Below, one piece after another: positions 39,463 through 42,300 of a stretch of 64,000 nucleotides of DNA. The stretch covers positions 1-64,000 of the forward strand of contig NZ_SPQP01000002.1 in the NCBI RefSeq assembly GCF_004571075.1. The letters are read 5' to 3'. This DNA is from Blastococcus sp. TF02A-35 (GTDB lineage: Bacteria > Actinomycetota > Actinomycetes > Mycobacteriales > Geodermatophilaceae). Position 1 is the stretch's first letter. Every line of letters starts with the position of its first letter. The notes under the pieces are model-generated. The model had not been told where the DNA came from, searched no databases, and saw nothing but the letters and a program-made list of their open reading frames with translations. The position numbers and the translations under genes were made by a program.

Positions 39463-39738
39463 TCAGAGCCTGCCGCGCCCCTGGCGGAGCAGCAGCATCC
39501 CGAGGGCGGCGCCGTCGTCGCCGAGGGCCTCGCGGAAGCGGTCGAGCACCTGCTGCTCGCGGGAGAGGTTCAGCCGGGTGCCGCCGGTCGCCTTGCGGAG
39601 GGCGCCGATCTCCCGCGACACGGCCAGGCGGCGCCGGACCAGCTCGATGATCTCGGCGTCGCAGGCGTCGATCTCACCGCGCAGCTCGGTGATGCGGTCG
39701 ACGGCGGAGCCGGTGACGGTGACGGGTGCGGTGCTCAT
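39463..39738 (-). CDS. Chorismate mutase (AroQ-delta type)
   Basis: Rearranges chorismate to prephenate, the branch point to Phe and Tyr. The 91-residue all-helical protein (ITELRGEIDACDAEIIELVRRRLAVSREIG... arrangement, LSREQQVLDRF) matches the short actinobacterial AroQ form, which in M. tuberculosis is next to uvrD1 and gains activity by binding DAHP synthase. The ATG at 39738 follows GAGGGAGACC. A leader peptide and terminator lie immediately upstream. Confidence 0.92.
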   Translation of the reverse strand: MSTAPVTVTGSAVDRITELRGEIDACDAEIIELVRRRLAVSREIGALRKATGGTRLNLSREQQVLDRFREALGDDGAALGMLLLRQGRGRL

Positions 39739-39783
39739 GGGGTCTCCCTCGGTCGTCCGGCCCGGGACCCCTGGGAACGAGAA

Positions 39784-39812
39784 ACGCCCCGGGCTCCTCG
39801 GGCCCGGGGCGT
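39784..39812 (-). terminator. Attenuator terminator ahead of chorismate mutase
   Basis: Read on the minus strand, ACGCCCCGGGC and GCCCGGGGCGT form an 11-bp perfect stem with a 7-base loop, followed by TTCTCGTT. The U-rich side is only on the minus strand, so it terminates transcripts heading into chorismate mutase. It begins 16 bases after the leader-peptide stop and ends 45 bases before the gene. Confidence 0.75.
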
Positions 39813-39828
39813 CTGTTGCGGCGTGTGC

Positions 39829-39891
39829 TCAGCCAGCGGTGACGGACACCGGATCCCGGTGGCCGTAGTAAAAGCTGACGGTGGCGAGCAC
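39829..39891 (-). CDS. Putative Phe/Tyr leader peptide of chorismate mutase
   Basis: A 20-codon reading frame: GTG, five codons, then TTT TAC TAC (Phe-Tyr-Tyr), GHRDPVSVTAG and TGA. TTT is a rare codon in this GC-rich window. CAGACT lies 7 bases before the GTG. CACCGG-GAT-CCGGTG right after the Tyr codons forms a small hairpin that a stalled ribosome would cover. Together with the downstream terminator this has the layout of a ribosome-mediated attenuator sensing Phe/Tyr-tRNA charging. Not proven to be translated. Confidence 0.65.
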   Translation of the reverse strand: MLATVSFYYGHRDPVSVTAG

Positions 39892-39898
39892 GGGCCGG

Positions 39899-39904
39899 AG
39901 TCTG
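39899..39904 (-). promoter_or_regulatory. -10 element of the chorismate mutase leader transcript
   Basis: CAGACT on the minus strand, then 7 bases and the leader-peptide GTG. It differs from TANNNT only at the first base; the same CAGACT precedes the gene at 39136. Confidence 0.4.
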
Positions 39905-39984
39905 CCACAGCGGCCGTCGGGCGCGCCACGGCCGCACCCGTGGTGCAGGTGGTGCGTGCGGTCCGGACCGTCACCCGTCCGGCC

Positions 39985-39990
39985 TACAGT
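39985..39990 (+). promoter_or_regulatory. -10 element of pcrA promoter
   Basis: TACAGT, 9 bases before the pcrA ATG, implying a leader of only about two bases. Confidence 0.5.
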
Positions 39991-39999
39991 GGCTTCGTC

Positions 40000-42300
40000 A
40001 TGAGCAGCAGCCTCCAGCAGTCCCTGCCCGGTACCGCCGCCCTGCAGCGTTCCGCTCCCGGCTCGCTCGGGCGGGAGCTGGACCGCATGCTCGCCGGCCT
40101 CAACGGGCCGCAGCGCGACGCCGTGGTCCACGAGGGCGGCCCGCTGCTCATCGTGGCCGGCGCCGGGTCGGGCAAGACGCGGGTGCTCACCCACCGGATC
40201 GCCTACCTGCTGGGCGCCCGCGGCGTGCAGCCGGGCGAGATCCTCGCGATCACCTTCACCAACAAGGCCGCCGGCGAGATGAAGGACCGGGTCGCCGCGC
40301 TCGTCGGGCCGCGCGCCCGGTCGATGTGGGTGTCGACCTTCCACTCGATGTGCGTGCGGATCCTGCGCGCCGAGGCCGCGAAGCTGGGCCTGAAGTCGTC
40401 GTTCACGATCTACGACCAGGGCGACTCGGTCCGGCTCATGACGATGGTCGCTCGCGACCTGGACCTCGACGCCAAGCGCTTCCCGGGCCGCAGCCTCGCC
40501 GCCCAGGTGTCCAACCTGAAGAACGAGCTGGTCGACGAGGAGGAGTTCAGCCCCCAGACGGCGCCGGAGAAGGTGCTGAAGGAGGCGTACACGCTCTACC
40601 AGCGGCGGCTGCGCGAGGCGCACGCCATGGACTTCGACGACCTGATCATGAACACCGCGCACCTGCTGCAGGCGTTCCCGGACGTGGCCGAGCACTACCG
40701 GCGGCGGTTCCGGCACGTGCTGGTCGACGAGTACCAGGACACCAACCATGCGCAGTACGTGCTGATCCGCGAGCTCGTGGGCCCGGAGGGCGGTGCGGTG
40801 CCGCCGGCGGAGCTGTGCGTCGTCGGTGACGCCGACCAGTCCATCTACGCCTTCCGCGGCGCCACGATCCGCAACATCGACGAGTTCGAGCGGGACTACC
40901 CGCAGGCGACGACGATCCTGCTGGAGCAGAACTACCGCTCGACGCAGCGGATCCTCAAGGCCGCCAACACCGTCATCGCGAAGAACACCAGCCGCCGGCC
41001 GAAGAACCTGTGGACCGACTCCGGCGACGGCGAGCTGATCGAGGGCTACGTCGCCGACAACGAGCACGACGAGGCCGCCTGGGTCGCCGAGCAGATCGAC
41101 AAGCTGGTCGACGCCGGCGACGCCCGACCCGCGGACATCGCGGTCTTCTACCGGACCAACAACGCCTCGCGCGTGTTCGAAGAGGTCTTCATCCGGGTCG
41201 GCATGCCCTACAAGGTCGTCGGCGGCGTCCGGTTCTACGAGCGCAAGGAGGTCCGCGACGCGCTGGCCTACCTCAAGCTGGTGGCCAACCCGGCCGACGT
41301 GGTGAGCCTGCGCCGGATCATCAACGTGCCCAAGCGCGGGATCGGCGACAAGGCCGAGTCCTGCATCGAGGCCTTCGCCGACCGGGAGCGGATCGCCTTC
41401 GGGTCGGCGCTGCGGCGGTGCAGCGAGATCGGCACGCTGGCCACCCGGTCGCTCAAGGCGCTGCAGGAGTTCGTCGCGCTGCTGGAGGAGTTCGAGCGGC
41501 TGGTCGAGACCGGCTCGGGCCCGGCCGCGCTGCTGGAGAGCATCCTGGACCGGACCGGCTACCTCGCCGAGCTGCAGGCCAGCACCGACCCGCAGGACGA
41601 GGGCCGCGTCGACAACCTCAACGAGCTCATCTCGGTGGCGGCCGAGTTCGAGGCGGCCAACCCCGAGGGCACCGTCACCGACTTCCTCGAGCAGGTCTCC
41701 CTGGTGGCCGACGCCGACCAGATCCCGGTGTCCGGCGACGAGGCGGGCGTCGTCACGATGATGACCCTGCACACGGCCAAGGGCCTGGAGTTCCCGGTCG
41801 TCTTCCTCACCGGCATGGAGGACGGCGTCTTCCCGCACCTGCGCGCGCTCGGTGACCCGCGGGAGCTGGAGGAGGAGCGCCGGCTGGCCTACGTGGGGAT
41901 CACCCGCGCCCGGCAGCGGCTGTTCATCTCCCGGGCCACGGTGCGCACCAGCTGGGGGCAGCCGGCCTACAACCCGCCGTCCCGGTTCCTCGACGAGATC
42001 CCGGGCGAGACGATCCACTGGGAGCGGCTGGACCCGGCGCCGGCCCCGTCCACCGGCTACCGCTCGGCGCAGACGAGGGTCGCGGCCACCGGGCTGTCCA
42101 CGGGCGGCCTGCGGGGTGGCCTGGGCAACCGGCAGGTCATCTCGGTGGAGGTCGGTGACCGCGTCAGCCACGACGCGTTCGGCCTCGGCACCGTGGTGGA
42201 GGTGACCGGCGTCGGCGACAAGGCCCAGGCGACGGTCGACTTCGGCTCGGGCGGCACCAAGCGCCTGGTCCTGCGCTACGCCCCGCTCGTCAAGCTCTGA
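40000..42300 (+). CDS. pcrA: ATP-dependent DNA helicase PcrA/UvrD1
   Basis: A 3'-5' superfamily 1 helicase for repair and replication. The 766-residue protein contains Walker A GAGSGKT (about residue 53), TFTNKAAGEMKDR, the DEYQD helicase box, GDADQSIYAFRGA, the QNYRS motif, TLHTAKGLEFPVVFLTGMEDGVFPH and VGITRAR. The C-terminus has the Tudor-like domain (GDRVSHDAFGLGTVVEV) that contacts RNA polymerase in homologues. The order chorismate mutase-uvrD1-M23 peptidase-sucC matches mycobacteria. Confidence 0.96.
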   Translation: MSSSLQQSLPGTAALQRSAPGSLGRELDRMLAGLNGPQRDAVVHEGGPLLIVAGAGSGKTRVLTHRIAYLLGARGVQPGEILAITFTNKAAGEMKDRVAALVGPRARSMWVSTFHSMCVRILRAEAAKLGLKSSFTIYDQGDSVRLMTMVARDLDLDAKRFPGRSLAAQVSNLKNELVDEEEFSPQTAPEKVLKEAYTLYQRRLREAHAMDFDDLIMNTAHLLQAFPDVAEHYRRRFRHVLVDEYQDTNHAQYVLIRELVGPEGGAVPPAELCVVGDADQSIYAFRGATIRNIDEFERDYPQATTILLEQNYRSTQRILKAANTVIAKNTSRRPKNLWTDSGDGELIEGYVADNEHDEAAWVAEQIDKLVDAGDARPADIAVFYRTNNASRVFEEVFIRVGMPYKVVGGVRFYERKEVRDALAYLKLVANPADVVSLRRIINVPKRGIGDKAESCIEAFADRERIAFGSALRRCSEIGTLATRSLKALQEFVALLEEFERLVETGSGPAALLESILDRTGYLAELQASTDPQDEGRVDNLNELISVAAEFEAANPEGTVTDFLEQVSLVADADQIPVSGDEAGVVTMMTLHTAKGLEFPVVFLTGMEDGVFPHLRALGDPRELEEERRLAYVGITRARQRLFISRATVRTSWGQPAYNPPSRFLDEIPGETIHWERLDPAPAPSTGYRSAQTRVAATGLSTGGLRGGLGNRQVISVEVGDRVSHDAFGLGTVVEVTGVGDKAQATVDFGSGGTKRLVLRYAPLVKL

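Follow-up and report, generated by a model that had tools for sequence, protein, structure and literature searches.

The window, meaning the whole 64,000-nucleotide stretch of Blastococcus sp. TF02A-35 DNA analysed here, carries on its minus strand a chorismate mutase (CM) gene, the only one in this genome, whose closest solved relative is the intracellular CM of M. tuberculosis, Rv0948c. The intergenic region common to this gene and a divergent PcrA/UvrD-like helicase gene holds a short open reading frame, a hairpin within it and a terminator hairpin behind it. These elements (39,784-39,904) and their flanks comprise the following features.

40,000-42,300, plus: PcrA/UvrD-like helicase gene, divergent, with its ATG at 40,000, outside the putative switch
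39,899-39,904, minus: -10-like box CAGACT, within TGTGGCAGACT, 7 nt 5' of the leader GTG
39,829-39,891, minus: leader open reading frame of 20 codons plus TGA, deduced peptide VLATVSFYYGHRDPVSVTAG; the same type of peptide precedes CM in relatives
39,865-39,873, minus: candidate control codons TTT TAC TAC (Phe-Tyr-Tyr), from the sequence and the comparison of leaders
39,842-39,866, minus: sensor hairpin (arms 1 and 2), ACGG-c-CACCGG-gat-CCGGTG-t-CCGT, from pairing and covariation
39,841-39,858, minus: predicted 5' part of the antiterminator (arm 2 region), CGGGATCCGGTGTCCGTC, pairing with the terminator 5' arm with an energy that co-varies among lineages
39,799-39,813, minus: predicted 3' part of the antiterminator and terminator 5' arm region (arm 3), GACGCCCCGGGCCCG, from pairing energy and covariation
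39,784-39,812, minus: intrinsic terminator hairpin of 11 bp, ACGCCCCGGGC / GCCCGGGGCGT, from the sequence and terminator scores
39,772-39,783, minus: U-rich terminator tail, UUCUCGUUCCCA, from the sequence
39,744-39,750, minus: Shine-Dalgarno-like GAGGGAG 5' of CM, from the sequence
39,463-39,738, minus: chorismate mutase (AroQ, CM_2; Pfam PF01817) of 91 amino acid residues, the presumed regulated gene

The initial annotation had described a 20-codon GTG frame with TTT TAC TAC, a CACCGG/CCGGTG hairpin and a stop, followed by a perfect 11-bp hairpin with a U-rich tail and then by CM, and each of these elements, spacings included, was read exactly where it had been placed. The leader GTG lies at 39,891 and its TGA at 39,831-39,829, the CACCGG GAT CCGGTG core of the sensor hairpin occupies 39,861-39,847, and the 5' arm of this hairpin starts inside the last Tyr codon of the leader. 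The terminator stem, 16 nt 3' of the TGA, pairs 39,812-39,802 with 39,794-39,784, and the CM ATG at 39,738 is located 45 nt downstream of it. The upper edge of the feature as originally delimited (39,904) coincides with the first base of the -10-like box. The U tract is interrupted in the window copy. A simple promoter/terminator scan returned no match at the locus; it requires a TTGACA/TATAAT-type promoter and at least five T in eight positions, which are absent from this copy. No second copy of the leader was detected in the Blastococcus sp. TF02A-35 genome at up to two mismatches. A 780-codon open frame on the minus strand (39,829-42,171) lies antisense to the PcrA-like gene, extends into the frame of the leader and ends at the same stop; automatic annotation could take it for a gene, hiding the leader.

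Distribution and conservation of the leader

CM genes were gathered at the genus, family, order and class level, with Blastococcus, Geodermatophilus, Klenkia and Modestobacter as named relatives among the compared genomes. Among the more distant groups, families f8, f15, f16 and f13 probably correspond to Mycobacteriaceae, Pseudonocardiaceae, Micromonosporaceae and a Frankia-like family, family f30 to Streptomycetaceae, and genus g68 to Corynebacterium. Defined as a frame with Tyr-Gly preceded by another Phe or Tyr and a stop within 26 codons, a leader was found upstream of 156 of the 172 CM-like loci, a set that includes paralogues and truncated contigs, versus 1.2% of upstream regions after dinucleotide shuffling. 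The 16 loci missed by this rule include at least two with the variant FYFG (L109 and L111). The leader is present at nearly all CM loci of Geodermatophilaceae, in the majority of the families sampled within the order and in f30, one further family of the class, examples being RFFYGYRSAVPVV, RFYFYYGTGSPAAVGRA, RFFYGTRTPAPVIA, RFFYGSGHPAAVIVV and TFLFTYGNRPTGCHGRAA. It is clearly absent from the four inspected g68 loci, from two other f8 genera and from distant CM paralogues. The f8 loci with CM and no leader are L141, L145, L152 and L153 (g68), L122 and L134 (g48), and L136 (g45), and the absence in these three genera suggests lineage-specific loss.

The leader also accompanies CM where another neighbour stands in place of the divergent helicase, notably in f30, and therefore belongs to CM. 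The assignment of this region to pcrA, as an N-terminal extension or 5' region, was rejected, because the flanks are divergent and the element is retained at CM loci that have no adjacent pcrA. Alignment of the relatives retained the aromatic codons, the stop and the terminator amid changing surroundings, the pattern that had been named beforehand as favouring a genuine leader, and this provides strong comparative evidence, at the level of sequence, that the element is functional.

The sequence CA[TGC]ACT stands 6-7 nt 5' of an in-frame ATG or GTG in 112 of the 135 distinct leaders, against 0.12% in shuffled sequences, and looser -10 boxes occur in 131 of them. A -10 box 6-7 nt ahead of the start codon is the layout of leaderless actinobacterial transcripts. 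This arrangement predicts that the leader would be translated from a leaderless mRNA; the leader peptides of S. lividans have likewise been described as leaderless (PMC8079986).

Alternative RNA structures

A hairpin followed by a T-rich tail was found 3' of the leader stop in all 135 distinct leaders. Its core is nearly always CCCCGG, and in most of the leaders listed it lies 11-24 nt past the stop. The terminator scores of 34 representatives averaged 35.9, compared with a mean of 9.4 for shuffled sequences, which never scored as high. In an alignment of 24 sequences from diverse families, the sensor hairpin was paired in 93.9% of the cells, with a covariation score of 0.283 versus 0.109 for shuffled alignments, none of 500 reaching the observed value.

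The predicted antiterminator would form when the 3' arm of the sensor hairpin, its loop and the next nucleotides pair with the terminator 5' arm and the bases immediately preceding it, so that antiterminator and terminator use a common arm and exclude each other. In f15 it is composed of CGGACUCCGG with CCGGAGUCCG, and in f16 it additionally includes GUAGGUC with GACCUAC. Across 34 dissimilar representatives, the arms belonging to one locus paired with a mean energy of -22.9 kcal/mol, versus -18.0 kcal/mol when arms were exchanged among loci (z -9, p < 5e-5, with 0 of 20,000 permutations as good), and the same result was obtained with one sequence per family. On the alignment, 80% of the antiterminator cells were paired, and the covariation score of 0.233 (0.120 for shuffled alignments) was reached by none of 500 shuffles. 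The suggestion that CCGG segments of the leader could alternatively pair with the terminator arm is thus backed by both covariation and arm swaps. Within Geodermatophilaceae the signal is weak, with pairing that does not exceed that of dinucleotide-shuffled sequences (mean z -0.44), and the antiterminator of the window is therefore assigned by homology with the other lineages.

The conservation of the leader peptide bears on two further readings of the locus. The first, in which the leader peptide would bind free Phe or Tyr and thereby arrest the ribosome, in the manner of TnaC and Trp, so that the codons would count only via the peptide, is favoured by the unusually good conservation of the peptide beyond the control codons within Geodermatophilaceae (GHRxPVxV) and by a Tyr-Gly pair that is near universal in CM leaders. 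This pair is, however, accounted for by base pairing, since UAYGG pairs with CCRU and the invariant Tyr and Gly codons have their own third bases paired (C-G and U-A for Tyr; G-C, C-G and U-A for Gly). Moreover, the residues after Tyr-Gly differ wholly among families (YGHRDPVSV, YGTGSPAAV, YGNRPTGCH) while the RNA hairpin is kept, and in f16 the hairpin core is shifted by one base relative to the reading frame of the window copy (TAC GGC ACC GGG versus TAC GGC CAC CGG), so it is the RNA and not the peptide that is conserved. We consider peptide-mediated arrest very unlikely.

Slightly less probable still is a functional microprotein followed by an ordinary terminator, with CM expressed by read-through or from its own promoter. 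It would suit the strong amino acid conservation within one family, but among families only the aromatic run and the hairpin-coding part are conserved, the antiterminator arms co-evolve, and the codon content tracks the pathway product (see below). The least probable reading is ribosome-independent control of the same terminator by a riboswitch, a T-box or a protein-binding leader, a reading also compatible with the conservation of hairpin and terminator, but against which stand the lack of a match at gathering score to Rfam release 15, amino-acid leaders included, for the window and five relatives, the small size of the element (~110 nt, with an entirely coding 5' half that leaves little space for a ligand pocket) and the conservation of the aromatic codons and not of the codons flanking them.

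As a separate observation, an extra inverted repeat (GUCUG...CAGAC, or GCUUG in f30) surrounds the leader stop in f13, f9, f14, f12 and f30 (e.g., L105, L156 and L160), where it could form a third hairpin; it was not seen in f16 or f8.

Control codons, pathway product and the proposed switch

The leader is a short open reading frame with clustered codons for amino acids that the CM pathway makes. The Phe codon located two positions before the invariant Tyr (39,871-39,873 on the minus strand of the window) is TTT in 125 of the 135 leaders, although this codon is otherwise nearly unused, with a TTT to TTC ratio of 2:338 across 41 likely genes in the window. A slowly read TTT would sharpen stalling, for which the rare Leu codons of the Salmonella leu leader are a precedent.

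A covariance model built from CM leaders only found the CM locus as its top match in the Blastococcus sp. TF02A-35 genome and for the majority of the genomes in the order, mostly with 40-84 bits versus less than 34 bits elsewhere. The same model also detected aromatic leaders upstream of DAHP synthase (PF18152) in other genomes and in another class. Trp is encoded in 26 of 27 DAHP synthase leaders, such as MQQRFYFWYGYRPGSPRRLVALH and MRDYFWFYGTSGSPEADAR, and in only 3 of the 135 CM leaders (Fisher p 8e-14, calculated on representatives). The product of CM, prephenate, is a precursor of Phe and Tyr only, whereas Phe, Tyr and Trp all depend on DAHP synthase, and the proposal of the initial annotation that Phe and Tyr control codons suit the product of CM is in agreement with this contrast. 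Such agreement between codons and product is expected of amino-acid-specific attenuation but not of a microprotein, a riboswitch or a plain terminator. Since a model of CM leaders alone retrieves DAHP synthase leaders elsewhere, with the same FxYG-hairpin-CCCCGG architecture at both nodes, we give roughly even chances to the view that one old attenuator family of Actinomycetota controls the shikimate pathway at two nodes and senses at each precisely those amino acids that the node supplies, with Phe and Tyr codons at CM and Trp, Phe and Tyr codons at DAHP synthase.

Type II DAHP synthase, the partner enzyme, was considered as a further carrier of the same leader and rejected: 17 of the 18 readable loci (L315-L331 and L333) have no aromatic leader, and the sole weak match is a longer frame; a further two loci were unreadable. 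The type II DAHP synthase gene of Blastococcus and its relatives thus lacks a comparable aromatic leader, and in the Blastococcus genome CM alone appears to be attenuated.

The effect of ribosome position was simulated with the transcript extended to the terminator loop, scoring how far upstream pairing occupies the terminator 5' arm. With the A-site on the first two control codons, this arm was predicted to be held by the antiterminator with a mean probability of 0.78, decreasing to 0.69 at the last Tyr codon and to 0.09 with the ribosome at the stop, compared with 0.37 in the absence of a ribosome. In these simulations a stalled ribosome would thus lead to the antiterminator and a ribosome at the stop to the terminator, but the controls discriminate little (0.56 for shuffled and 0.67 for swapped upstream sequences versus 0.78 for the own sequence); the model is consistent with attenuation and, taken alone, separates it weakly from the controls. 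For the full-length RNA at equilibrium the terminator was present in nearly all states, so the switch must be kinetic, which is how attenuators generally act.

Given the anatomy of the locus, its conservation, the covariation of both alternative structures and the match between codons and pathway product, the sequence is very probably that of a ribosome-mediated transcription attenuator of chorismate mutase, in which stalling at Phe and Tyr codons would prevent termination. Leader translation, premature termination and a response to Phe/Tyr supply would then be expected as follows. Transcription would start at or beside the GTG, and the leader would be translated from the leaderless RNA. With charged tRNA-Phe or tRNA-Tyr in short supply, the ribosome would stall at TTT TAC TAC and cover the 5' arm of the sensor hairpin, to which the Tyr codon itself contributes the first pairs; the 3' arm thus released, together with CCGUC, could then pair with GACG and the CCCCGG terminator 5' arm, so that no terminator would form and CM would be transcribed. 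When charged tRNAs are ample, the ribosome would proceed to the stop and cover the CGUC part, the sensor hairpin would re-form behind it, and the terminator would end transcription. The switch would thus probably raise CM when Phe or Tyr run short.

Relation to known attenuators

The proposed mechanism is of a known type, represented by trpL, pheL and aroR, but CM appears to be a new target, and the distribution is very wide. In the E. coli pheL-pheA and pheST systems, as proposed here, stalling at Phe codons relieves termination, and pheL precedes a CM-containing enzyme. The leader frame of pheL, however, has a Shine-Dalgarno start and Phe control codons only, the pheA product is a fused CM-prephenate dehydratase, unlike the CM of the window, and the window leader matches none of the Rfam leader families at gathering score.

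Among actinobacteria, the closest analogue is AroR of C. glutamicum, mentioned in the initial annotation as a Phe-rich leader upstream of aroF and indeed described as an attenuator of this DAHP synthase gene with Phe-Tyr-Phe codons that responds to Phe and not to Tyr (Neshat et al. 2014, via PMC11802643; PMC4046766). AroR and the proposed CM switch are alike in being actinobacterial attenuators with Phe/Tyr control codons at an aromatic-pathway gene; they are set apart by the target gene, DAHP synthase versus CM, and the four CM loci inspected in g68, the presumed Corynebacterium, lack the CM leader. The leaderless trpL, ilvL and leuL of S. lividans and other actinobacteria (PMC8079986, PMC1262725) have a leaderless short frame, control codons and mostly a terminator, as is predicted for the CM leader, but different amino acids and genes are concerned. 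In M. tuberculosis, the attenuator of ilvB1 (PMC13236596) is an example of uORF-dependent mycobacterial attenuation with tested terminator and regulatory codons; unlike the CM leader, its codons are for branched-chain amino acids, and the mycobacterial polycysteine leaderless uORFs have Cys codons and are described as translational.

The initial annotation knew of no leader described for this CM, and our search of the open-access literature likewise found no description of an actinobacterial CM leader, a provisional result as subscription papers were outside the search. A comparative survey from 2005 reported Trp, Cys and branched-chain leaders as well as T-boxes before ileS, and for the remaining amino acid pathways it reported no conserved upstream structures (PMC1262725). 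CM is not among the eight leaders listed for S. lividans (PMC8079986) or in the list for C. diphtheriae (PMC5784534), and is absent from the main text of the M. tuberculosis ilvB1 paper (PMC13236596). The intracellular CM of mycobacteria is described as an essential branch-point enzyme, subject to feedback by Phe/Tyr and to regulation through its complex with DAHP synthase (PMC7762937). If the attenuator reading is correct, an additional layer of CM control, acting on the transcript, has been overlooked across much of the actinobacteria, by extension probably including mycobacteria and Streptomyces, and the leader could serve as a small Phe/Tyr biosensor part for the engineering of aromatic compounds. 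The CM and DAHP synthase leaders would also lend themselves to comparison, as naturally occurring versions of one switch whose codons are retuned from Phe/Tyr to Trp/Phe/Tyr at an earlier step of the pathway.

Leaders of type I DAHP synthase were observed at L219, L225, L247, L255-L268, L285-L291, L297, L301, L303 and L313, in several actinobacterial families and in another class. They are short Trp/Phe/Tyr frames, mostly leaderless in appearance, and those inspected have a hairpin and a CCCCGG-type terminator behind them.
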